A stretch of DNA of 64,000 bases. It comes from Dictyophora rubrovolvata. Its lineage: Eukaryota > Basidiomycota > Agaricomycetes > Phallales > Phallaceae. Each line of letters opens with the position of its first letter. Position 1 is the first letter of the stretch. The notes below the pieces were generated by a model. It had not been told where the DNA came from and searched no databases. It worked only from the letters and a program-made list of their open reading frames with translations. Below, one piece after another: positions 1,799 to 53,706 of the stretch. The position numbers were made by a program, and so were the translations under genes. The stretch is from assembly GCA_029959195.1 (NCBI GenBank), contig CP114119.1, forward strand, positions 62,001 to 126,000, written 5' to 3'.

Positions 1799-2647
1799 TG
1801 GGACGGTGAATCGTCAATTAGCGTTTAGTTACTGAACGTGGACGCACTGTGTGACGCGTCACTGCGTCCTCCCTACCTATGCACCAATCTTTATAGCTTC
1901 GGACCTGATGAGGTACAGTGCGCGTAAGGTGATTATTTTGCTCGTGTAATGCATATCATCGGTCTACTCACGCTCACCTTCTCATTCACGGTACTCGTCC
2001 CCAATATCGTCGATCCAGAAATGGTGGCAGGAGTATATAAGCCGTACCCTTGGCAGATGAGAATGTCTCAGATACTGCGCTTCCTCTTAACTACTATTGA
2101 GGCTTCGCTTCCGTTATTGTACTGGTAAGGCTTCGGTGTAACTTTGCACAAATATGTTCATAATAAATTAGTTTCTGACGAAGGCAAACTATCATAGCCA
2201 TGAGACTATCCGTTCGTACTCTCAGCTCGACTACTATTTCCATAATAATAAGGGGCCATGTCGCTGCGTTTGAGATGTGATCGAAGACAAAGAAATCACC
2301 GAAGATTGTAAAATACTCGGTAGCGTTCTTTAACCACGTGGGCTCAAGCCTGTCATCGCATTCTAGACTTTGTTTTCAACCGAGACGTTGACCACAGATG
2401 GCACAAGGAGCGACTAAAAGTTCGCTTGAAAACAGAAGTTAAAAAGGACCACATTGTGCACCTCCAAAAACCTTTTGGGCTGAACTTGATACCAGAAACG
2501 GAAGACGTCACCGGTAAACTTCTCGCCCCAGGTTAGATCGGTGTAAAACGATGCTGTCGAAGCAGCGATGTCGACGACAGCATATTGTGACTAAGGTTAG
2601 TATCGTTGCTGCGTTTGTCACGACGTTGAACTAGACTGCCGAGTCAA
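1799..2647. other. Intergenic region between epsilon-COP and the reductase module
   Basis: It should hold the promoter of epsilon-COP on the minus side and of the reductase on the plus side. A TATA-like element (TATATAA) lies near 2034 and an E-box CACGTG at 2335-2340. No adenylation or carrier-domain reading frame could be found here, although such a domain would be expected upstream of the reductase. Confidence 0.4.
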
Positions 2648-4493
2648 ATGTATTTCGGTGGAATGGCGGGAGAAAATCAGAAGGTGCCGCCGAGTGACGT
2701 CGGATTCCATAAATTTCACTCGACCCCCCGACGCGCGCGACCGGTTCCCGGCGTAAAGCACGTTACCGCTACCACGACGTCATGGCGGGCAAATTCTTTG
2801 CCAGCACAAAGCGGACAACTGGACAGAGAGGATATGCTTCAACCAACCATGGCCAATGACCTCCATCGTCGCATGGCCGACGTGATTCAGAAATACTCGT
2901 CCGGTTTTATTCCTCATATATCTATCAGTGCCGGCGCGCGCCAGGGTCATGGCTCTTTAGCACAAAGCAATAACCGTCAGCTTGAAGAATATCATGTCGC
3001 TTTGACTGGTGCAACTGGCAATGTCGGGTGCATAATGTGTCATTTATTAATAGAAGACCCTAATGTTCGGACGGTATACTTGCTAAACCGTCGGAATGGT
3101 TCACCGGCTAAAGAACGAATCGGCGAGGCTTTTCGAGAGAAAGGATTTGATCCGAACGTATTGGATACATCCATAACTCGAATAATATACCTTGAAATAG
3201 ATTTTTCAAAGAAGAAACTGGGGTTGAACGAAACCGAATACACTAATGTCAGTAACTTCCAATACTCTCTTTCTCCCCGTTGCTACTCCTTTTTTGACAA
3301 CACTCCGTAACTCCAGCTACAGAGTACCGTAACCCATATCATACACTCAGCTTGGGAACTCCGGTTTAACGTTGGCTTGGAGTTTTTTGAACAAATGCAC
3401 ATTGCTGGTACCCGACATCTTATCGATCTTGCCCTTGGCTCACCCCGTCAGCGATGTCCTCGTCTAGTCTTTCTTTCATCCCTCGCAGCTGCCATAGAAT
3501 ACAATGGCCCGTCCGATGTACCCATCATTGGAGAAACCGGCGGACAGGTCCTTGTTCCAGAAACGCCCATTGATGACTTCTCGATGGTCATTCAAGATCA
3601 AGGATACGGCCAAAGCAAATATGTGTGCGAACGAATAATTGTAAATGCTATACCATTTGGGTTGAGAGCTACAGTCTCTCGCGTGGGCCAGTTATCCGGT
3701 ATGACGACGAATGGGCAATGGTCAAAATATGAGTATTCAACGATACTACTGCGTGCCATCCTGACCACGAGGATATGTCCAACCGACATGCCGGTAAGGT
3801 ATAGTTCTCTATGCAAAGAGGTACATTAACCAAAGTGCAATGGCGCTTTTTTCCCCCTTTCTTTCTGGATGTCAGTCTTATCGATGGCTTCCATGCAATG
3901 TAGCCGCGTCAGCGCTGTTGAAACAAACCTTCGCTGATGCAGAAGATCTCCAATACTTTTCGGTGGAATCACCATACCCGACGCCGTGGAGCAACGTTTG
4001 TGGTGCTTTACGACTGATCCCCGAACTCCAGCCTCTATATTATGCCTCGTATACTACCTTGCTCGAAATATTGAACGGAAACGGAAACGGGAACGGAAAC
4101 TCTAAGTCACCCGTTGCATCTCTTCTCAACTTCTATCAGCAGCGGATTGAGAATTTCAAAACGAGCGCAGCGCTAGGATGGAATCGATCCGTAGTTATCG
4201 CGCCTGAGCTAGCAAAAGGAGGTTGTATCACCGTCGACATGTTTAAAAATTATGTTACCTATCAAATGAGACAATTGGGCAAGTTTTCACTCACCTGTTT
4301 TCGTCTCTCATTCTCAGACTTGCGATTCAGGAACGGGGAGTGGAGCATCGACCGCAACGCCTTCAAAATTATGAGCTTACGTGAATACGAAGGAGGTTTT
4401 GTATATACTCTCTATGCTATATATAAATTATGGGATGTAACAGTGTATTTTCATTACGCAAGTTGTGGGTTTTTTCACGGACTACCCAAGTAG
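2648..4493 (+). CDS. Thioester-reductase (R) domain of an adenylate-forming reductase, lacking A and T domains
   Basis: The protein is the NAD(P)-binding reductase module (Lys2/male-sterility family) that normally sits at the C-terminus of fungal NRPS-like or aminoadipate reductases and releases a carrier-bound acyl group as aldehyde. Visible motifs are the Rossmann glycine motif LTGATGNVG (about 3005), the segment VTHIIHSAW just after intron 1, and the short-chain-dehydrogenase YxxxK as YGQSKYVCER (about 3604). Exons are 2648-3247, 3323-3793 and from 3876; both joins are phase 0. The region after about 4280 has no family match, so the true end may be earlier; a donor-like site with an AG at about 4317 would shift the frame. 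No adenylation core motif or GGDS carrier motif is seen upstream. Either this is a stand-alone reductase, or the remnant of a truncated gene. The region 4494-4850 holds no other gene. Confidence 0.65.
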
Positions 4494-13242: not shown

Positions 13243-16174
13243 ATGAGAGAGTCAAACTTTGCATTTCCTGCGCAAAACAGGGCATGTGTCTGCATCTCAT
13301 CCCAGTTATATGACAGACGAGGTTTCTATTTTTTTTTCCTATTCCTCGATCGGCGTTTTTCTTAGCCATTAATTCACAGCATTGGATACCTCGTCGCCTC
13401 TGCCACTCTTCAACTCTTTAAGCCATCTGACGACTTTGAGTTCTACTTCACCTCGTATTAGGGAAATTTTAGTCATGGATGGTGGTCTGGAACGCCTTAT
13501 ACGCATCTTACGAGATTTCTGTTCCAATCCACCTCTTCCCGAACCACCGACCCAATTTTACGGACTCCTCACGCCCTCCTCCTCCAATACGTTGCATTCT
13601 AACTCAAACGCACCCACTGGGCCCCCTATTCATGATCCTCGACGACCATTCGATCGCGCTGCAGCGTATCGATTCAGCCTTGCCCTACAGTGTATCGTCA
13701 ATATTGGCGTTAGGGGTTCAGAACCTATTCGAGCCCGAGTCGTGCAGGCTGGCGCCCTAGATGTTATTGGCTGCATCCTTGAAGCCTGGTTAACTAGTCG
13801 TGGCTTCGCAATTCTTCCCAGCTCAAGTGCGAGTGGTCTTCCCAGGGAGAGTCGAGAAGTCAGACACGCTAGGCGGATGGCTCTAGTAGCCCAAGAAGAG
13901 GCTAGACATGCAATACCTGTCTCTTTGTCATTACCACCTTTACCTCGTGGGAGCACCTGGTTAGACGACGAAGTTCCTAACACTGCTCGACCACTTCCGA
14001 TTTTCCCGCAACGAACGATTTCAGCGAGACCTCCTGATACCAGAGTACCTAATGAACCGAATCCAGCAGGCAATACGCGTTCTCGTAGCAATGATTCAAG
14101 TCCTCTCCGCAATAGTAGATCTTCGTCTGTCGCGAATGATAATGCCACCTCTTCTGCCGATGAACAAACCCGTGCTGGACGCTCTACCTCGAATGGCCGC
14201 ACAGATACTGAAGCAGAGAGTGACGCCGATGTTGAAATGGAAGATGCAGACCGTAATGATGCTTCGCAGTCTGCTTCCATTATACAACCTCCGCCGCAAG
14301 TGGATGTTGGCATGGCTATTCTAGAGCCTGGGCTTGGGCTGAATATGGACCTCCTAATGGGTGTCGGGGTCGGTGTCGGGGTCGGTGTCGGTGTAAATGT
14401 CGATCCTGAAGGAATTGCCGTAGACATTAATGGTAGAGAGCTGGGAATTGGTGCTAGGGAATTGGTATTACAACAGCAACAGCAGCAGCAGCAGCAGCAA
14501 CAGTTAGAACAACAGCAAGTCAGGGAACGTGATCGTGAACACGAACGACCATCAGAACGATCTGAAGATCTTACACCTCGAGCACCGTTGGCAGCTTTGC
14601 CTGATGCTGGTCCTCATCTCATACCCCCGAGACAACCAACCGTCGCCAACCTCCACCAACGTACCCACATCAATCCTACTCCGAGACCATTCATTCCTCC
14701 GCCACATCCACGAACACACATGAATATGATTCCAGGTATACCCTCGTCACACACGTCGTCATCGATGGCCCGACATGATGCAGGGCCTTATAAAGAAGAA
14801 GATGTCTTATTATCATTGCAGCTATTAGCCTATCTAAGCAAATACCCTCATGTTAGGCAGGCGTTTTATAAACCGCGAGAGGTCTTCAACCCTGTACTCA
14901 AAGTGCGTGTTTTTTATTCTACCTGGACCACACTTTAACTGTCTAATTAGACCATGCAACCCAATGCTAGTGCCGCTCCACCACATACCAAAGGATCCGA
15001 GTCGGTAGCATCCATGCCCAATGCAAGTTTCTTCAAAGCCTTCACCGGGAGAAAAGACAAAAGGCCTGCCAGTGCAAGTACACCCACGGGACAATTGGAT
15101 TCACTTGCTACGGACTATCCAAATCCTCCTCAAATATTCAATCCACCTTCAAGATCCACTCCGTCTCTTTTACAGTCAACTAACATTTTTTCTCTGGTTG
15201 AGCGCTTCACCTTTCGACCCTCTGCCTCTGAATCGCATCTACCCAATCCACCCCCTGTTCTTCCTGACGAAATTCAGTATTGGGCCGGTGTTGTCATGCG
15301 AAACGCGTGTCGGAAAGACGATTCTCGGGGTGGTATCCGGCAGTGCGCCAATGTCCAGTGTGGAAAATGGGAGAAATTTCCACGTGAATTTGCAAAATGT
15401 CGACGATGTAGGAAAGCCAAGTATTGTGGAAAAGAGTGTCAAAGTCGGGCGTGGAGTGAAGGTCATAGGTTTTGGTGCTGTGTCAAAGAAGAGGAACCGG
15501 ATGGAATTAACACTTCAGTTATTGGTATACCTGTTCTGTCCGTCGGCACGGGTCAACGAGAACGAGAAAGAGAACGAGAGCGAGATGAAACACGGAATAT
15601 CATTGATCCCGCGGCAACTACTAATCTTACCCTTCTCGGTCAGATGCGACGCGGTGGCTTAGGGGGTACAGTATTGGATATGTTGCCATCCCATACTGCA
15701 GAGTCGGGTGCTAACGTCGAAAATCAAGCCCTTAATACTCCCACCCAAAGCCGCCCCAGCGGTGCCGATGTGGCAATGCAATCAGAACGGGCGTACCCAG
15801 TCATAACGACATCGCCGCCATCCACTAGCAGCCGAGTAACCTCTCAGTCAGAAGCTTCGACCTCTTCTCAGAATAGATGGTCTGACAGCACCTCGCTGCA
15901 GCTACAGCAGTCGGACCCGATAGCATCCAACGCACAAGCTGGGAATGCTACAGCTGAGGCAATTGATACCATGTCGGTATTTCATGCGCCGTACTTAAAT
16001 CTACGTGCTCGGACTGGCGATTTCAATACTTTAACCGGTGACGACACTTCAATAACTGAGATCGTCGGCCGTTCGCTTTCCACTACGGATTTACCTAGCA
16101 TTGTGCGGGGTTTCGCTGTTTCAGGGCCTGATAGTAGGACAGTCACTGAATTGCTGGATGAGGTGATAGAATGA
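13243..16174 (+). CDS. MYND-finger protein MUB1/samB
   Basis: Three exons (13243-13321, 13380-14902, 14951-16174), 941 residues, all in phase. The start MRESNFAFPAQNRACVCISS followed by LYDRR/ALDTSSPLPLFNSLSHL and MDGGLERLIRIL is the MUB1/samB N-terminus. In exon 3, IQYWAGVVMRNACRKD leads into the MYND zinc finger with its Cys/His ligands (QCANVQCGKW, CRRCRKAKYCGKECQ, HRFWCC). In yeast Mub1 partners Ubr2 and Rad6 to ubiquitinate the proteasome-gene activator Rpn4; in Aspergillus samB affects growth polarity and septation. The region between residues about 190 and 480 is an expansion not needed for the family: acidic, with a Val-Gly repeat and a glutamine run. Annotating from the TTG at 13382 would miss exon 1. 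Confidence 0.93.
14361..14394 (+). repeat. Short GGTGTC/GGGGTC tandem repeat coding Val-Gly
   Basis: A six-base unit (GTGTCG with GGGTCG variants) is repeated about six times inside MUB1 exon 2, coding alternating valine and glycine. It is likely to vary in length between strains. Confidence 0.8.
14471..14503 (+). repeat. CAG/CAA run coding polyglutamine
   Basis: A mixed CAA/CAG run inside MUB1 exon 2 codes about eleven glutamines, followed by LEQQQ. Mixed codons make it more stable than a pure CAG run. Confidence 0.85.
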
Positions 16175-30274: not shown

Positions 30275-32303
30275 TCACAACTTAGATTGTTTCCTAGCAG
30301 CCAGTTTCGCTTGGAGACGTTTCTAAAAAAAGATGTAACCTCAGCATTCTTAACCCAACTCATAAAGAGCAACATCACGAACGTTGACAGCATCCATATA
30401 CTCGTTAGTCGTGACCCAATGCTCCCGTTTCATGTCTTTTCCATGAATAGCCAAAGCGAGGTCTTTGGTCATAACACCGTCACTATCGATGATTTCGACG
30501 CATGCTGCTTCAAGGTCTTGACAAAAGTCAGCTAAAAGTGGATTGTTGTCTAGTTTGGCACGGAAAGCCAATCCGCGAGTCCAGGCGAATATGGAGGCGA
30601 CCGGGTTAGTGGATGTTTCTTTGCCCTTTTGATGCTCTCTGTAGTGTCGGGTTACAGTACCTTGTAAACAACAAAGTTGAGAATTCCCCTAAAAGGTGTG
30701 GAGTATGATGAACACAAACCGTGCGCAGCCTCAGCTTCAATCGTCTTTCCATCTGGAGTAACAAGTTCTGACGTCATCATGCCCAAACTTCCAAAGCCCT
30801 GGGCGAGAATATCACTCTGTACATCACCGTCGTAGTTCTTGCACGCCCATACAAACCCACCCTGGGATTTGATAGCTTGTGCCACCATATCGTCAATCAA
30901 TCGGTGTTCGTACCATATACCCGCCGCCTCGAATTGGGATTTATATTCCCTGGGAAGGAAGTTTGTTTGTGATTGGGTCACTTTTTGTTTCTTTTTTGTT
31001 TTGGACTTACTGGTCATATATTTCCTGGAAGATGTCTTTGAAACGGCCATCGTATTTCTTAAGAATGGTATTTTTTGTAGACATGTACTTTTATCGGTGT
31101 AAGTTTGATGCAAGATAACGTGCGCTTATCGGAGCATACCAAAGGTAACTTCTTTTGTAAGGCCATCTTGAATGATGAATGGGCGAAACCACGAATAGAC
31201 TACACAAAGAGACGTGTTTAATAACGTAACGATCAACATATCAGAACCATACGCACCTCATCGTGATTGTACATGGCAAGTGCGACACCCTTGCCTTTGA
31301 AATCATACACGTCCATTACTGTTGGTTCACCTCCACCTTCCGGAGTAAACACCAGCTGTAGTTTGCCCGGCCCCGGAGCAACATAATCAGTTGCACGATA
31401 CTGGGACGTGTGTTAAGAACGTTGTCAAACGCACTTCGAGAAATGAACGTAATCATGGACATACTTGATCGCCGAATGCATGACGACCTATGACAATAGG
31501 CTGTGTCCAACCCGGGACAGGTCGAGGGATGCTGCTGAGCACGATGGGTTCGCGGAACACTGTCCCTCCTAAAATATTACGAATCTGAAGCAAAAGGACG
31601 TCTTAATCACGGGTGCGCACGGATAGACAAAGCTTACAGTTCCATTTGGTGATTTCCACATTTGCTTGAGCTTGAACTCTTCAACACGAGCCTCGTCAGG
31701 TGTGATTGTAGCACACTTTAAGAAGGGTATGTTAGACTGCAATTTTAATTGATGCATAACAGTAACGCTAACCTTGATCCCAACACTGTACTTGAGGATG
31801 GCTTCTGCTGATTCGATAGTGACTTTGTCGTCCGTCTGTAACGCAAAAAGCAATGAGCGGTTAGATACAATCAACAGAGGATTTGCCATTACAGCATCAC
31901 GGTATTCAATACCGAGGTCGTAGTACTTGATATCTAGTTTCAGATATGGCAGGATAAGCTGGACGTTTGGATAACGGATTCAGGACGGTTACGATGATGC
32001 AGCGCACTCCTCACCTCTTCTCTGATCTTTTTCCAAATGATCCGTGTCATTTCATCCCCGTCTAGTTCAACAACTGGGTTGGTAACGACAATTCTGTTAT
32101 CCTCAGAAGCTACGAATACTGTTTTAGGAGAAAAAAGAGAAAGATGAAACAAGCAGCAAAAACAGACCCATGGTATTTGAGAAGCGGCGGTGCGAGTATG
32201 AGATATGTCGAGCGTGAAGGAACTGTCTGAAGAGCGGATTGTTGTAGCGAAAACTCGAAACCGGCGATAATGGAGGCTGAGAAATAAGCCTGCGAGAAAA
32301 CAT
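30275..32303 (-). CDS. NADP-dependent isocitrate dehydrogenase, mitochondrial/peroxisomal
   Basis: Converts isocitrate and NADP+ to 2-oxoglutarate, CO2 and NADPH. About eleven exons; the first are 32303-32168 and 32118-32015, and the last is 30322-30275. The order of family motifs is complete: [117 protein letters not shown] and [12 protein letters not shown]. The start at 32303 gives an Arg-rich presequence ([10 protein letters not shown]...). The last three residues are SKL, a peroxisomal type-1 signal. The in-frame ATG at 32171 ends exon 1 in an ACCATGG context and would give a form without presequence. A second possible first exon lies at 32500-32617. Confidence 0.93.
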
Positions 32304-32499
32304 TTCTTTATTTAAGAAAACAGAAATGTGGGATTGGTCCGAGTTTTGTGGAGTTCCCGAGTCAGTCACGAGATGGCTCGTGATTCAGGAAGATGGCAGA
32401 ATTGGATCCCTGGATTTGTAAGCTGGTTTGTATGGATCACGTCTTCGTGTTTTGTTTTTCTCTGGAATGAAATCGACGTGTGCGATAGAATGAACTAAC

Positions 32500-32617
32500 G
32501 CTGCGTTGAGACTGTATACGTTCTTCGAAGGAACTTGGCTGCTGGTCGTAGACGCGCAACTGCGGCGAGCCTATCGGATGATCGGAGCATCTTTGGTAGC
32601 AAATGCAGCGTAGCCAT
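32500..32617 (-). other. Candidate alternative first exon of isocitrate dehydrogenase
   Basis: From the ATG at 32617 (or 32590) the frame codes a second classic presequence, with LRSSDRLAAVARLRPAAKFL and RRTYTVSTQ, ending at a GTTAGT donor after 32500. It ends in phase 1, exactly as exon 1 at 32168 does, so it can splice to the same exon 2 at 32118 and would skip the MFSRRL exon. It may be an alternative promoter exon. A chance frame is possible, but the composition (many Arg, no acidic residue except one Asp) argues against it. Confidence 0.5.
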
Positions 32618-33290
32618 GTAACTAAACAAATGCTGATGAGAAAAAAAGGTGAGAAGTCGGGCTGACGGGCTGGCGTTGGCATATGCACATTGGCACCAGA
32701 TTGCGGCATTGACATGATGCTGCTCCTTCTTCGATATCAGTATGATCATAATAATACAAATTACATATATTTTAAAAATTATACCCACAGTTTTTTGTCG
32801 TGGCAGATGTGATTCAGTCAAGAGGCCATCATGCTACTAATACGCGTACGGGTATCAGCTGCCAGTGAGAAAGATAATCAAATCATCAGGAAAGGGGGGT
32901 ACCTACATATTATACCGTATGTATTATGGATATTATGTATACAGTACGCATAATAATAATACATTTCACAACTTGCTGGGCCGCACTGTGGGTCCGATAT
33001 ATTCTGACCTACATTATTTGTACACATGCATGCGCATAAAGAAGTGATGGTACAAACGAAGAGTCAGAAAATTTCAATCATGACTGAGGAAAAATGCAAC
33101 TCGGTATACTGATGAATGGATGGTTGTACGTACGTGAAAGTGAGAATGAGAATGAGAGAAAATGACAGAACAAAAAATGATGATGGTTAATTAAATGATT
33201 AAAAAAAGAAAAATGCCATTTGACGCGGTTCGATCGCAACTACAAGCTGTTGAATACTGCGCATGCGTTGTTTTTTTTTCCTCCCTGCTT
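32618..33290. other. Intergenic region
   Basis: Upstream of the isocitrate dehydrogenase gene and downstream of the acidic unknown gene. AT-rich with several short GTAC and ATAATA repeats around 32900-32960. No gene seen. Confidence 0.45.
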
Positions 33291-35297
33291 TTACACACAC
33301 CCATAATACTTCTCCCAATTGGGTCCCAAAGGCGAAGGTGGAAACCCCGGGTGTCTCATCCCACGGGTCGATAGCGCGCGATGGTATTGTGCAACAGCAA
33401 GCTTCCATTGAGACTTTTCTGATAGTGCGTACGATGAATATATTGGTTTGTGTTTGTGTTTTTTGAACATGGGCGATGACGATCGCAATGGTGGTCGGGA
33501 TAAGCCAGGCGGGAATAGTACTGAGTTTGTTGGCGACGATAATGACGTGAACGGAGGTGTGGATAAAGAGAGGGACGTTAAAGTGGATGGTGAGGTAGAC
33601 GGAGATCTCGACGTAGATGTGCCTCCAGATGTAGACGAAGAAAGAGATGGTTCAGGTTGTAAAGGTATCATGTTATTCCGACCGCGACCATTCCGTCGGG
33701 AATCCGAATGTAAGTCAAACGGATCATATAGATATATAACATCGGGATCGTACTCGTACTCTTTTCCAGAGTTCAGATCTTCTGCTTCCTCTACTTCTTC
33801 GCCATCGTCAACATTGCCAGAAAGAATTTCAAGACGCGGTGCTTCGGATAGCTCATCTTCGTTAGCCGAAACGTGACATATACCGTTGGTATTGTCGCTA
33901 CCGCCGTCGTCCTGAGGAGGAGACAACAGCGGAAAGGATGTCTCATATGGTCGTAGTCCATGCGCCGTACGCGGTCTAGATGTGAAATCAACGCCGTTGT
34001 TATCCTGAGAATCCGACCCTAGGGCACAGGGTAACGCTTCATCATCGGGTGGCGTTGATGTCGAGTGCTTATATGACCCAGTTGATGAATTGTCGTATTG
34101 TATGTGTGGAATCTGGTGTGACTGTTGTTGTTGTTGTTGAACATATTGGTTCATTCCCCAATTCGAACAGACCGGCGCAGAACCGTAACCAAGAAGAGGA
34201 AGAGGTATCGTATGGTGTGAAGAGGCTTCCGACGATGAAGGAAAAGAGTCTGAGGAAGAAGCTGATACTGATGCTGATGCTTGTACTGGTACTCGTATTG
34301 ATGGCGTCGGATCCGAACAGTCAGCGTTTGTGTCAAAGTCGACATCGGCATCATTATCAACCTCAGCCTCCGTGACCACCTCCATACCAGTATCCCCATC
34401 CGTACTACCAGTGCCAGTGCTCATGTCGGTATCCAAAAGCTCGATAAACCGTGGTCGCGGAGTTGGAGGTGGAAGGAACAGGAGTTCATCTTCGCTGTCG
34501 GAAGCGGAGGTCGATGGTTGAGGAGAAGACGGGATTATCATGTCAGTGAAAGCTTGTTCTACACTAGGTGAATGGGGGATTGCATGGTTCTGAGTTGCGG
34601 TTGGATTTGGGTCATTTGGATCCGGACGGGGCCACATTGTTATTGACGTTGTTCGTGCAGTTGTTAGAGCATCGTTAAAACACATTGCACCTTGGGTCAG
34701 GCTCGTATGCGTGAAATCGTCACCGACATCGACAGCGTTCGCTGCATTCGTATTCAAATCCAAGGCGTATGGTCGTTCCAATTGCAGAGAGTCCATTGTA
34801 TGATCCGCATCCTCTCGGTCGCTGATTGTTGAATAAGCCTCAGAGTCCCAGTCAACCAACGCCTCGTCAGCATCTGCACTGTCATCTTCATCGACTCCGT
34901 CATCATGGAGCTCAAAAGCACCGTCGTCATCGAAAGCCGACATTCCAATTCCTCCAGGACCAACACCGTCTCCCCCTTGTTTTCCGTTAGAACCAGAAGC
35001 ATCAACCCAACCATCATCATCAAGATTAAGATCCGACCTGTTTTCAATATGATCACTGAATAATAAGCTTTTGGACAGATTGTAGACCTCCAGAGCTCCG
35101 CCGCCTCCGTCTTTGATTCTGGCTTTGGCATTGCCCTGTCCCGATTCAGTAGTAGGAAGGCATGGTAAATCACGACCACTGTGTTCACAAAGGCAATGAA
35201 AGTGCGAATTCAAAGAATAAAGCCTTTGGATGAGCTGCGAAAGCAGTGGCGACAGCGGTGTTTTCTTATCGGGATTGTACCTGCGACGACTTGTCAT
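33291..35297 (-). CDS. Large acidic, Ser/Asp-rich protein of unknown function
   Basis: Single long frame, 668 residues from the ATG at 35297. The frame continues upstream to an ATG at 35615, but that part is His/Thr/Gln-rich and looks like a translated CA-rich leader. I therefore prefer MTSRRRYNPDKKTPLSPLLS as the start, followed by a short helix (LIQRLYSLNSHFHCLCEH). The middle is disordered, with many Asp/Ser blocks and a five-Gln run. The C-terminus is the most protein-like part: PIYSSYALSEKSQWKLAVAQ, YHRALSTRG and PPSPLGPNWEKYYG. That end looks conserved to me, but I cannot name the family. No enzyme motif or membrane span is present. Lack of introns over 2 kb is unusual for this window. 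Confidence 0.6.
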   Translation of the reverse strand: MTSRRRYNPDKKTPLSPLLSQLIQRLYSLNSHFHCLCEHSGRDLPCLPTTESGQGNAKARIKDGGGGALEVYNLSKSLLFSDHIENRSDLNLDDDGWVDASGSNGKQGGDGVGPGGIGMSAFDDDGAFELHDDGVDEDDSADADEALVDWDSEAYSTISDREDADHTMDSLQLERPYALDLNTNAANAVDVGDDFTHTSLTQGAMCFNDALTTARTTSITMWPRPDPNDPNPTATQNHAIPHSPSVEQAFTDMIIPSSPQPSTSASDSEDELLFLPPPTPRPRFIELLDTDMSTGTGSTDGDTGMEVVTEAEVDNDADVDFDTNADCSDPTPSIRVPVQASASVSASSSDSFPSSSEASSHHTIPLPLLGYGSAPVCSNWGMNQYVQQQQQQSHQIPHIQYDNSSTGSYKHSTSTPPDDEALPCALGSDSQDNNGVDFTSRPRTAHGLRPYETSFPLLSPPQDDGGSDNTNGICHVSANEDELSEAPRLEILSGNVDDGEEVEEAEDLNSGKEYEYDPDVIYLYDPFDLHSDSRRNGRGRNNMIPLQPEPSLSSSTSGGTSTSRSPSTSPSTLTSLSLSTPPFTSLSSPTNSVLFPPGLSRPPLRSSSPMFKKHKHKPIYSSYALSEKSQWKLAVAQYHRALSTRGMRHPGFPPSPLGPNWEKYYGCV

Positions 35298-36835
35298 CCA
35301 GGGTGCGCGTAGAGTGGTAGTAGTGGTGTACTGGGAGTGTGTAAGGTTCTGAGGAGTGTGTTGATTTGGGTGAGTGTGGGTGTGTTGTTGGGTGGGCAGC
35401 AATAATTGAGCGTTTTCCGGCTTGATTAGTAACTTTTGAGCAAATGGAAACCTTGATCGTAATCCCGTGCCCAACAACACCTTTTTTTGTTCACCAGGCT
35501 CGTCAGTAGCAGAATGGTGTTCCTGCAACTCCTGCAGTCCATGCACCTGCTCTTGTCCTCGACACCACGTCGCCGGACTGTGAATCGTCTCCGTCGTGGG
35601 ACTACATAAGAGCATCTGATCAAGAGATCAAACGATGAAGACACCGCTGTTGTGCTCGATAAAGCTTGTAGTTGAGTGTCTGTTGAACACACTTGGTGGC
35701 TGGTGATTGTCGATGGGCGATGGGCGATGGGTGATGAACACGGGTATGAGACGGAATGATGAAGGGTATAACTATGGCGTTCGTTCGGAGACGGAGAACG
35801 GGCCAATGTGACGAAAGATCTGAAATAAATATACGGCGAGAGGACGTTACGACGCTAAATACTAGTTAGCTCGCGTAAAGTCTAATATAATTCATAAAAA
35901 GAAACCCAACCTGGTAATACGCGGCGCCCCTTTGGAAGGAAAATCGGATGCGCGATGGGGCGGTACGATGTTTAGTTGTGCGTGTTATAGCCAGCAGCCA
36001 AGGCGAGAAGAGAGCCTGGGCCTGAGATAGAGAGAGAGAGACGTGGACGGGAAGTAGAGGAAGTCGAAGAAAGCTACTAAATAAACAGATGTGGCATTGT
36101 CCACTTTTTCTTCTACGGCAAGGGCCTTTACTTCCGAACGAGTCTTTGTGATTTCACCACACACAAGTGTTCAGTGGCATTTTTTTGGCGAAACAAACAA
36201 AAAATATAAAAACAGGCAGATTATGTAAGGTTTGATTGAGGCTACATTTTTGAGCTTTAAGGCTAGTTCCATGGCCCTCCAAAGTAAGAAAGCAAGTAAA
36301 TTTTTATTTCATTTTTCTGTATGATATGCCAAGTCATTTGCTAATAATGTCACTTGAATAAAAAGAACCAGAAAGAACCTTGAAGTAGGGCTGGATAATG
36401 GATCTATAACCGAACAAAAAAACGTTTATTCCTAATTGGCCATCTTTTCCACCCGGTCGCACAGCCTCTGGAAGAACAAAAGAAAAGGATATAACCATTC
36501 ATATAGCACACAGCCTGTTTGCCCTGCCGACAATCCCCAGGGGCTATTACGACAGCACTTTGATTTTGAAGAATGACAGCCCTGCGCGCGCGGTGTTGTG
36601 TCGTTTCCTATTACGTTACAGTCTCATTTGGATTCGAGCCTGGTTTATATCTAAATAGGAAGCGATCAACTTCAACAGGATAGCGATGAATCAATGACGT
36701 TTTTATACAATTCTGGTGTCTTGAGCGAATTCGAATGGCACGGGCGCGAGCGTATAAGTTACGCCCATTCAATTTTTGTTCGTTTGATAGATGATGCGAA
36801 TCTTTTTCATGATGACACTGAAAAAGGAGCTCAAA

Positions 36836-39034: not shown

Positions 39035-41188
39035 TCATCGAGGTAAAGTATCAATCAGTCCACATGCTCGATCAACAATGGAAGCATTGACAAGTTGCAC
39101 GACATTATTGAATTCAACGTCAATCCCAAACCCGAGGTTGGCAATTTGGGGATTGGAAGGCGTATAAGTAACCCAATTTGGAGCAGGTGGCTGATTAGGT
39201 TCCTTCGCGAAGTTTGCCTGATAGTGAAATTGTTGTTCAGATATTTGTTAGAACAATTGTAAACGGGCTTACCCAAACCGTTTGTAAAGTTTTTGAAAGG
39301 GTTAATTCTGTGGCGTTCGTCGTATTGAAAACATTTCCAAACACCAGTGGGACTAAAAGACGAGTTATTTCGGATTAACTTGGGTGAAGACATACTTACG
39401 TTCCGCGCCTTCAGGAGCTCCCGCGTTGGGAAAGAATTGGAATTGAGGGAAAATGCCTCCATATACAAAACGATACACAGCGGAAAGGTTTTTTCCCGAA
39501 TATATGTTTGAGAACATGGCATCGGGACTGAAAAAGTGTTTCAGCATGGGGAAAAGATTACTCGGAACGCATGCGTTTACCATCTGTATTGAAAATCTGT
39601 AGCCAAAGCTATAATCGCTTCAGCGTCATTCGGGAAAAGCTCTGGAACGGCGTATAGTTCCCGCAATTCATCAATTGGAAATGCATTGAAAGGAGGTTGA
39701 GCCACAAAATCTGTGAAGTTGTCTAATCCGATTGTTAAAAAAGATGCGCCTTGGGCATTATCGCCTATCATGACGGGAACATGGGCGACCTTGCCACTTT
39801 CAAGGAGTTCTGTTGGGTGATCTGGAAACGTTACTCTACGACAGCAGAGATTTAAGGTTAATTATGTGTAATAACACTTTGACACGTACCCTCCATCAGA
39901 TTGTGGTTGGAAGCTCAGTGAATTATCCAACACAAAACTACAGTTATTAGACGTTTAGCGAAGCGAAATCAAGAATTTCCCGGAGCCAACTTCACTTTTC
40001 AATCGTTTCCGCAGGAAGCTTTCTCAAGCATTCCAACTGTTGAATGCCTTCGACACTGGAACAATCTAGACCTTCTGCAAGCATATTCCACATGGCAAGA
40101 CTTGCGTTAACATCGGAGGACTGCGAGCTATCCAAAGCATCGTTTACACCTGATTGCAGAATAATGGAATGGAATGGAGTATGCTGGGAAAATTTCTCGA
40201 GAAGAAGCGCAACGCTGGCAGAACCAGCAGATAGACCGAATAGCGTGATCTGACATAAATTTTAGAACAGTTTGAAAACGTCAATAAGTCAATTTTTTTT
40301 TTACTTTGTTTGAATCTCCACCAAACTTCGCAATATTACTAAATCATCGGTTAGCAGCAACGCAAAATTGGCATTGACAAAGACGCACTCGATTGTCCAT
40401 CTCAAGGCCAATTGTTGGTCAAGTAATCCAAGATTTTTTTGTTGAGGAGGTAAATCGGGAGAACTGTTTAAACTTATTTGAGAACAAGACGGAGACGTCG
40501 ACATTTAAGAAACAGAAAACCTACTTGGGAAACCCGAATACGTTTGTACGCTGACCAGGGAATTAATTAGTCAGATGTTTTCTCTCAGTTTATCAACAAC
40601 CACGTACGTAATTAAAAGAGACCAAAACAACGTCCTGATTGTGTGCGAAAGACGTTCCATCGTAAAAGAACGTCCCCGAACCACCGAATTGAAACCCTCC
40701 TCCTGTTTTTGGAATCGGATTAGGAAAGAAAAGGAGGCTGTCGAGGATTGAGTAACCATACCAAATATCCAAAATAGAACGGCTTTAGGAGCTTGATTTA
40801 GTTTAACAACCGGAGCCCATACATTGATCGTAAGACAATCTTCACTTTCGGGAAGCGGCGGAGTATTATAAAAAACCTGACTGGGGTCTGTTGCAGCCTC
40901 AGACTTGTTCAGAAGTTGGATACAGGCTGAGCCCAGACTACTAGCATCAAAAACATGAGACCATTTGTTTAAAGTCGGAGGGGTCCAACGTAAAGGGCCC
41001 GTTGGTGGGACTGCGAACGGGATGCCTTTCCAAGCCAGGACATCCGAGGATACTTGCGTTCCTGAAACTGGCCCTGTAGTTGTATATACAACAGGATTGG
41101 ATATTGTAGGAAAGGCAACAATAGGAGGAAAGTTGAGAAGACGCAGAAGAAAAGCTGAAGTGGAAAGAATAGGGAGTAAACGGAGCAT
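39035..41188 (-). CDS. Secreted type-B carboxylesterase/lipase-like protein with altered catalytic triad
   Basis: Alpha/beta-hydrolase of the carboxylesterase type-B family, in about ten exons from 41188 to the stop at 39035-39037. The N-terminus is a signal peptide (MLRLLPILSTSAFLLRLL). Family blocks follow in order: GPVSGTQVSSDVLAWKGIPF, PPLPESEDCLTINVW (containing the usual EDCL), the oxyanion loop FGGGFQFGGSGTF, SFNYRTNVFGFP, NIAKFGGDSNKITLFGLSAG with the nucleophile Ser at codon 40229-40231, and LPLVFGN near the end. The residues that should complete the triad differ: the position of the usual Glu is Gln (39751-39753, IGDNAQGASF) and the usual His is Glu (39410-39412, APEGAELP). It may therefore be a non-catalytic or otherwise changed member. 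No frameshift is visible and splice phases agree, so it looks expressed rather than dead. Confidence 0.85.
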
Positions 41189-41252
41189 ACTTTATCAGAT
41201 AATTTGCTACGTAGAAGCTGGAGGATTTTATACAAGTGAAATGTATTGATGA

Positions 41253-46732: not shown

Positions 46733-48625
46733 ATGACCCTAGTTGCCACTAGAGAATTTCCTGAACGATTCGCTGAACTCAAAAAGCAACTTGTCCGCGA
46801 AATTTCTCCGAACGGCAGCGAACGACTGATTACAGCTTGGAAAGAGATCCTCGGCGAATTGGAGAAAACCACACAAGCAATTCAAGAGAGAGGAAGTGAT
46901 GTGAGTTTCACGAGATCCGAAATTACCTCTTTTTCACTTCTCTTTATTATCAATGCGTTAACATTTTTACCATGTACCCTAGTACATTCCTCAAGTAGAT
47001 TTCTCAGAGTTGAACACCTTGAGTCCTGAGAAAATTGCGGAAATCAAGAAATGCGGCTGCTTGGTCATCCGAAACGTTGTGGACGATCAGGAAGTTATTC
47101 AATGGAAGGAGGCTGTTAAGGAATACGTCTCTGCCAACCCTTCTATCCCAGGTTAGAAAATATGGACATCACCGCATCGCCAACATCTAATGTCACTGAC
47201 TCGCTCGTTCAGGGTTCCCTGAAGAAAACAAACAATTCTTTCACATGTAGTATGTATTTCATTAAGATTGCTCACCTCGTTGGGATGATGTAAACGGAAA
47301 AATAGCTGGTCGAAGTCACAAGTTAAAGCTCGCTCTCACACAAACGTGGTCGCCTCGCAAATCTTCCTTAACTCTCTTTATCACGGAGGACCAGACGCCG
47401 CCCTTACATCTTCCTTGGCGTACGCTGATAGGCTGCGAATCAGGCAGGCAGGTCCCGAAAAATGGGAAGCTCACCCCCCGCATATTGACGGTGCGTGTGC
47501 ACAACCGCTTTGTCAAACGTTCAATAGCCACTAACGGTAAAACCATAGGCGGCGCAATTGAGCGCTGGGAAGATGTCGGGTTTAGGAAGGTTTATGAAGA
47601 AATTTTGAAGGGAGACTGGAAAGCACATGATCCGTATGATGTAGGCCGACGTCTTGCGGTTAATTCCAACTTGTACAAGCGTCCGGGGCAAGTATGTGTA
47701 CTTATATGTGTTGTTTTGTGTTGGTGTTTATTATGATCTCTGCCTAAATTTGTCCCTAGTCCACAGTATTTAGATCTTTCCAAGGCTGGTTGGCCATGAG
47801 GTATGATTTATTTATTTTTTCTCATCATACAAAGTCCTTACAGGTCCCCGCCGAAAGTGATACTAAACCTAACGAAGGAACGCTTCAGTGTAAAGATTTA
47901 CTTTCAAATATCTTTTGTGAAATTCATGTGGTTTTAGTATTTCCCGATATCAAATTATCGAACTCGTATCTCATTCTCCGTCCTTTCTTCCGTCCTCTCG
48001 AATCACCTGTTTCCTCCAACCCTTTGGATCCTCAAAACTGGGAATTTGGTATAAACACTCTAGTTAGAACGGCAACAGTGTAAACTTATAGACGCAAAAT
48101 TAGACATATCATCACCCGATTTTCCGGGTATTTACCCCGTTGGAGAATACTATTTAGGTCCAAGACCTAACACCAAGACGCATCCCCACTTACGCCTTGA
48201 TGAAACCATGATTAGTGTTCCCTATGTCAAACCTGGAGATATGGTTTTTTGGCACTGCGTAAGTATCCGTACCCTGTAACCGCATCATATCTGAACAAAA
48301 CTGAAGGACCTTATCCACGCCGTGGAATCCGAACATCATGGTCAAAATGATTCAAGCGGTATGTTTACTCCCCCCCATCTATCACATAGCATCCTTGCTT
48401 AGGTATCTGTAATATGCACCAGTCATGTATATTCCCGCGGTTCCAGTGACACCCCAAAACAAGGAGTATATTCTTAGACAGAAACAGCACTTTTTGATTG
48501 GAAAACCACCCCCGGACTTTGCACAGGACAACGGGGAAATTGGTTTCACGAATCTTGCGAATGAAAAGGATTTTCTCAGTGATATTGGAAGAACTGCGAT
48601 GGGCTTAGGCGAAGTTAGTGCTTAG
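46733..48625 (+). CDS. DUF1479 family protein, putative Fe(II)/2-oxoglutarate dioxygenase
   Basis: First exon is 46733-46900; about ten exons follow to the stop at 48625. Family blocks run in order: REFPERFAELKKQLV, YIPQVDFSELN, IKKCGCLVIRNVVDDQEVIQ, HMYWSKSQVKARSH, GPEKWEAHPPHIDGGAIERW, YDVGRRLAVNSNLY, STVFRSFQGWLAMS, YLILRPFF, PDFPGIYPVGEYYLGPRPNT and KPGDMVFWHCDLIHAVESEH. HxD in PHIDGG and the His of DLIHAVE are the likely iron ligands, an arrangement typical of 2-oxoglutarate oxygenases. The join after GWLAMS uses an acceptor at about 47873 (giving SDTKPNEGTL), which fits the family better than the nearer AG at 47833. Substrate is unknown for the fungal family. Confidence 0.85.
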
Positions 48626-53027: not shown

Positions 53028-53706
53028 TTTAGGATGAACGGTGTGTGTGCGTGGTTGTAGTTCAAAGGGGAAAAAGGTTACCGAAGGACCAAACATCAAC
53101 AAATAACGCGCGAAATGGTTTCTTGCCGATTATGTAACTACCTAACGGCATGTTTTTAGCGCTCATCGCGGCTTGACTTCTCATACGAACAACGTTAAAT
53201 TCACTGAAAGTACTGAACAGTAACTATGTATCCTAAAAAGATGCTGTTTCTCGTGCATTTGCATACATAACAAACAGGGAAAGGTAAGCTCAAAATTCTC
53301 CAGTCTGAAGGGTTCAATTTAAAGAAAAATTCCATTACTTCGGATCTCAAGCGACATCTTCGCTACTAGGTGATTGTATTGCACATTAGGCGCGTAGCCA
53401 AGCACACGAAATGTGGAACTCCGGACAACGTTGGTCGTCTCATCCAATGAGAAAGAAATCATTCACAGACAGATTTTGTGGCACAAACAGAAAATATGGC
53501 ATAATGATTGCAAGTAAGAGGTAGAGCGGATGATCGTTATCTGTCTCAGAAAACGTTGGCCATGTATGGGTCGTTGATTCTCACAGTGGCAGCTATACCT
53601 TGTTCGGAAGGATGCCGGGCGGTATGTATTCAATGGGAGCACAAGGGTCGCCATTGCCCGGCCAGGACGCCACTTTGTAGTGTCCCTTTTCCTCGTTGTA
53701 CCCCAC
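53028..53706. other. Divergent intergenic region
   Basis: Between the SAP-domain gene and the first P450 gene; holds both promoters. No gene or distinct motif seen. Confidence 0.45.

Follow-up and report, generated by a model that had tools for sequence, protein, structure and literature searches.

The idpA gene of Aspergillus nidulans is reportedly the subject of a study by Szewczyk et al. from 2001. In the accessible text of PMC3798809, idpA is presented as one gene with three forms arising from alternative transcription starts, the longer transcript carrying a mitochondrial presequence together with a PTS1 and the shorter one lacking the presequence and giving a product common to cytosol and peroxisome; the preliminary description of the present DNA likewise states that A. 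nidulans makes several isoforms from idpA. A review, as excerpted, argues for idpA that the N-terminal signal prevails over SKL in the long forms. The single-gene result is credited to Neurospora crassa in the available part of PMC9549241, and the title in that article's own reference says Aspergillus nidulans. In Cryptococcus neoformans, IDP1 (CNAG_03920), described as a putative mitochondrial isocitrate dehydrogenase, has two isoforms produced by alternative start sites, a long one that is mitochondrial and a short one that is cytosolic, and the start-site switch depends on growth phase and needs Tur1 (PMC11302930, accessible passages). Two general schemes are described in the excerpts at hand: alternative first exons joined to the same second-exon acceptor with a changed targeting signal (PMC4585086), and Cryptococcus dual-AUG mitochondrial/cytosolic proteins in which an upstream AUG is followed by a presequence and an in-frame AUG in strong context (PMC7049704). 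One gene for three compartments is already known (idpA; IDP1 for two). Fungi with a single NADP-isocitrate dehydrogenase gene must split NADPH production among mitochondria, cytosol and peroxisomes, and in the known cases the split is tuned through the choice of start site, with a single presequence involved.

A minus-strand NADP-isocitrate dehydrogenase (NADP-IDH) gene was located in the window (the whole 64,000-nt stretch of DNA analysed), extending from 32303 to 30275 in 12 exons when entered through the first exon termed 1b. Exact spliced alignment by dynamic programming returned a single solution, consisting of exon 1b and 11 further exons with the stop codon ending at 30275, and the 11 introns of this route measured 49-64 nt. 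The product was aligned over residues 9-415 of 423 with solved NADP-isocitrate dehydrogenases (best E 3.4e-193), matched 50 distinct PDB sequences (E up to 0.001), and was classed as eukaryote-type on this full-length homology. When the 28.2-Mb genome that holds the gene (11 contigs) was searched with the protein, 8 matches were obtained, all inside the same gene, and no second NADP-IDH locus was found by this protein search. The PF00180 family was detected at 10 places in the genome, 2 in the gene itself and 8 on contig C10; the latter were absent from the matches of the protein search and are presumably NAD-type isocitrate and isopropylmalate dehydrogenases. All four signals listed in the preliminary description (two presequence exons, an internal ATG and SKL) were recovered where it had placed them, and their coordinates are collected in Table 1.

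Table 1. Positions of the features of the NADP-isocitrate dehydrogenase gene in the window.
Feature	Positions	Strand	Basis
Candidate alternative first exon 1a, MATLHLLPKMLRSSDRLAAVARLRPAAKFLRRTYTVSTQ, starting in phase 0 and ending in phase 1, with donor GTTAGT at 32499	32500..32617	-	
ATG-free stretch between 1a and 1b, 196 nt	32304..32499	-	ATG count
Candidate intron, exon 1a to exon 2, 381 nt, contains exon 1b	32119..32499	-	Phase and open frame
Exon 1b, acid-free presequence, 136 nt, 45 residues + G	32168..32303	-	Spliced alignment and presequence rule
Internal ATG (ACCATGG), start of 423-aa form without presequence	32169..32171	-	Sequence context and translation
Intron 1, 49 nt long with a weak GTCTGT donor	32119..32167	-	Spliced alignment and splice matrix
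Exons 2-11, NADP-isocitrate dehydrogenase core	30383..32118	-	Homology and spliced alignment
Last intron, 60 nt, GTTCGT...TAG	30323..30382	-	Removal gives SKL tail
Last exon, then stop	30275..30322	-	Homology and spliced alignment; core end confirmed against bacterial relatives

Upstream of the gene on the same strand lies a low-complexity 774-aa ORF (33291-35615) with a high content of Ser and Asp, for which no Pfam match was found at E up to 0.001. Other ORFs in the window carried a MYND finger (14951-16171) or matched the carboxylesterase (40574-41191), Gig2-like (47266-47733), coatomer epsilon (710-1363) and male sterility NAD-binding (2630-3307) families.

Presequences were called from composition, hydrophobic moment and motif, and by these measures an N-terminal presequence of the idpA type was found. 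The exon 1b peptide (45 residues) has a hydrophobic moment of 0.61 and an R-3 type motif, and it contains 7 Arg but no acidic residue; spliced alignment and this acid-free composition bear out the Arg-rich presequence exon proposed earlier. Translation from ATG 32303, which has a purine at -3, gives the full 1b-route protein of 467 aa. The ATG at 32171 sits in tcaaataccATGggt (aataccATGG), the best context among the starts, and yields a product of 423 aa after removal of intron 1, so that the internal start said to drop the presequence was also confirmed. The final four bases of exon 1b are ATGG; the internal start is therefore part of 1b and is missing from a transcript that joins 1a to exon 2, where the next in-frame ATG is 32050, within the catalytic core. 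That the internal ATG is found in exon 1b alone is a point missing from the preliminary description, and because of it the choice of first exon would decide whether a cytosolic/peroxisomal form can be made.

Donors were scored with a small matrix for which 10 introns served as the training set; these introns themselves scored 4.8-9.4. The 1b donor scored -0.5, the weakest of the gene, and the sole branch-like CTAA of intron 1 lies 5 nt from the AG, leaving no good branch site; for these reasons splicing of intron 1 may be inefficient or regulated. Its removal is required for any ATG start from 1b.

Removal of the last intron gave a C-terminus ending in SKL, with gapless homology to solved homologues across the junction, and the spliced end continued the homology with the yeast enzyme (EEFLDAVEKRLQKEI) and a cytosolic enzyme in the PDB. 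A C-terminal PTS1 of the idpA type is thus found, and the claim that this intron restores SKL was upheld, since the spliced end follows the homologues across the junction. When the last intron is retained, an in-frame TAA within it ends the protein at ...VALYELG, without SKL; such retention is a possible route to a non-peroxisomal form. No PTS2 signal was found in either N-terminus.

Relatives were compared from a contig scan, using the best 80 of 577 loci, all of which were bacterial, with no fungal relative among these 80; a scan of viral contigs gave no relative. Complete ORFs were present in 77/80. The bacterial proteins have 8-9 residues before a core motif in 57/77 and 10-40 in 8/77 (12/77 were unmatched to the motif pattern). 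The corresponding distance here is 15 residues when counted from the internal Met and 59 when counted from the Met of 1b. A PTS1-like ending ([SAC][KRH][LM]) was seen in 0/77 complete proteins, and the 12 bacterial proteins that were aligned end around KLQAKLA, short of the ARKQSKL tail. These relatives (77 complete, from the best 80 of 577 loci) thus consist of the enzyme core and lack both presequence and tail; since none has a PTS1-like end and the 12 aligned ones stop before ARKQSKL, SKL is an addition outside that core.

Exon 1a (118 nt) begins with ATG, closes in phase 1 as 1b does, and is followed by GTTAGT. Its 39-residue peptide has a hydrophobic moment of 0.64 and an R-3 type motif, and it contains 6 Arg, 2 Lys and 1 acidic residue. 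When 1a was joined to exon 2 the frame stayed open and a protein of 461 aa resulted, so both 1a and 1b have the phase and frame expected of alternative first exons with a common acceptor; the second presequence-like exon claimed in the preliminary description, with the same phase and joinable to exon 2, is to that extent sustained. The GC content of exon 1a is 0.542, compared with 0.386 in the upstream and 0.423 in the downstream flank. The context of its start (agttacATGG) is poor, position -3 being a T, whereas a further ATG in the same frame, at 32590, carries an A there. Upstream of 1a, 19 ATGs occur in 673 nt (10.44 expected); should transcription begin far upstream, its start would be preceded by ATGs out of frame at 32715, 32709, 32690 and 32682 and in frame at 32749. 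A 92-codon ATG ORF in a different frame overlaps exon 1a (32437-32715), while the frame of 1a stays open over 112 codons. Between 1a and 1b there are 0 ATGs (2.36 expected from composition); judged by composition, this leader-like stretch is possibly the start region of 1b transcripts.

Chance occurrence of such an exon was estimated by a strict rule (ATG, 25-60 codons, phase-1 donor GTNNG[TC], net charge at least 7, at most 1 acidic residue, at least 6 Arg and an R-3 motif) together with middle and lenient rules. The rules were applied to the interval 33290-32304 after dinucleotide shuffling (10,000 shuffles) and to real sequence, taken as 400 strand windows of 1 kb each from 200 kb of this genome. 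For the 1a region the strict rule was satisfied in 16/10,000 shuffles and 1/400 real windows, the middle rule in 84/10,000 and 2/400, and the lenient rule in 559/10,000 and 12/400, figures that flatter 1a because the thresholds were chosen after both exons had been seen. Shuffles of the 1b region (32499-32119) gave 3, 14 and 81 per 10,000 for the strict, middle and lenient rules. An earlier, smaller shuffle run had given 7/1,500 for the strict rule and 1/1,500 and 28/1,500 for two others. Over the whole window, on both strands, the strict rule matched 1a and 1b only; relaxing net charge to 6 added one match, a presequence-like phase-1 exon candidate at 53489 on the minus strand. A second presequence-like exon is unlikely to have arisen by chance, although the thresholds are post hoc. 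Codon usage gave no support for 1a (19% of 715 null ORFs scored as high), another frame of 1a scored slightly above the 1a frame, and exon 1b failed the same test (54%); codon usage was set aside as uninformative for exon 1a, both exons lying within the null. The claim of competing presequence exons is carried by a low chance rate when the rules are tightened, by the agreement in phase and by the raised GC content; codon usage adds nothing to it.

The 1a donor scored 3.4, below the training range; 10/63 GT sites in 33290-32015 scored higher, and 15.5% of GT sites in the window scored as high. The exon 2 acceptor scored 6.7 (training acceptors, 5.7-11.7). The 1a donor was combined with 15 acceptors, and in 3 of these combinations, the one with the exon 2 acceptor included, the frame stayed open into exon 2. 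The possibility that 1a starts a separate gene through this donor was rejected, the other 12 acceptors running into a stop codon either ahead of exon 2 or within it, as was the possibility that it was copied from another gene, exon 1a being single-copy in its genome by DNA and protein search. No repeats linking 1a and 1b were found. A bacterial sigma-70 scan of the 5' region was set aside as meaningless for a fungus; intron size and gene content suggest a fungal source, probably a basidiomycete.

Exon 1a could instead be noncoding for NADP-IDH, as a promoter or unspliced leader contributing at most a uORF that lowers translation of 1b, with 1b alone serving the compartments as in idpA. The stop (TAG) of the 1a ORF inside its own donor agrees with this, as do the middling donor, a candidate intron of 381 nt where the other 11 measure 49-64 nt, a lenient chance rate of 3-6% and the uninformative codon usage. 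A uORF, however, would have no reason to encode an Arg-rich, nearly acid-free peptide that includes a cleavage motif, or to stop at a donor that is both usable and of the correct phase. We judge this explanation rather unlikely and give it substantial weight.

Were 1a the main mitochondrial exon, 1b would be chiefly the leader of a cytosolic/peroxisomal transcript and its first ATG little used, which fits the weaker donor of 1b (-0.5 vs 3.4 for 1a) and the best ATG context at 32171. The cleaner presequence of 1b, with no acidic residue and an R-3 motif, its lower chance rate (3/10,000) and the purine at -3 of ATG 32303 argue the other way and make this improbable. Splicing of 1a into 1b at 32306/32305, which would create one long tandem presequence, leaves the frame open through 1b into exon 2; it would use an acceptor (AAATAAAG) scoring 0.7 vs 5.7-11.7 for the training acceptors, however, and is very improbable.

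The reading to which we incline, at slightly better than an even chance, is that a single-copy eukaryote-type NADP-IDH gene with two alternative first exons serves mitochondria, cytosol and peroxisomes. The length of the 1a intron, the low scores of the 1a and 1b donors, the ATGs upstream of 1a and the lenient chance rate count against it. Gene structure, SKL tail, presequence character of 1a and 1b, common phase and the restriction of the internal ATG to 1b are established as features of the DNA. The combination of presequence, internal start and SKL tail in one gene is well supported as anatomy, in agreement with idpA and IDP1 as described, and the second presequence exon as the variant part stands at about even odds. 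The preliminary description, which had proposed one gene coding for three compartments with competing presequence exons, was thus supported in its anatomy, while the competition between exons rests on statistics.

Under this preferred reading, transcripts starting upstream of 1a would have 1a spliced to exon 2, with 1b and the internal ATG skipped, which would leave a mitochondria-only enzyme. Transcripts starting between 1a and 1b, or within 1b, would have 1b spliced to exon 2 and could give both the presequence form from ATG 32303 and the 423-aa form, the latter being initiated at ATG 32171 through leaky scanning or because transcription starts late. This shorter form would be divided between cytosol and peroxisome through SKL; the long forms would follow their N-terminal signal, which would override SKL. 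The R-3 type cleavage motif is a mitochondrial processing motif, and motifs of this type occur as RTY/T in 1a and RRF/S in 1b. Since they lie 5 and 4 residues, respectively, before the common junction, the mature matrix enzymes would be almost identical, and their N-termini would be expected close to TVSTQLFVASED or SNTMVFVASED. Exon 1b has the cytosolic/peroxisomal AUG as its last codon, and use of 1a therefore removes this AUG; we tentatively suggest, at rather less than even confidence, that first-exon choice acts as a commitment switch, 1a leading to mitochondria only and 1b to three compartments. If so, two independent presequences would be kept for different exclusivity, with the same destination.

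The locus resembles idpA in having a single gene, a presequence form with a short form, and a PTS1; it differs in that idpA uses alternative starts of one first region, and the accessible text of PMC3798809 mentions no second presequence exon. IDP1 is likewise a fungal NADP-isocitrate dehydrogenase gene with long and short isoforms, but neither a competing presequence exon nor a peroxisomal form is mentioned in the available passages of PMC11302930. The open-licence literature searched, as far as its accessible text goes, gave no fungal isocitrate dehydrogenase gene with a second presequence exon. The competing first exons, 1a for mitochondria only and 1b for both forms, would be new if true: by deleting the cytosolic start, a second presequence exon would allow mitochondrial supply to be raised with the other pools unchanged, and the arrangement could be sought in other dual-localised genes. 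The scheme excerpted from PMC4585086 pairs different compartments, whereas both exons here address the same organelle and differ in the cytosolic start. The Cryptococcus dual-AUG proteins, as described in the available part of PMC7049704, have the same order of AUG, presequence and AUG, but the second AUG here is removable with its exon.
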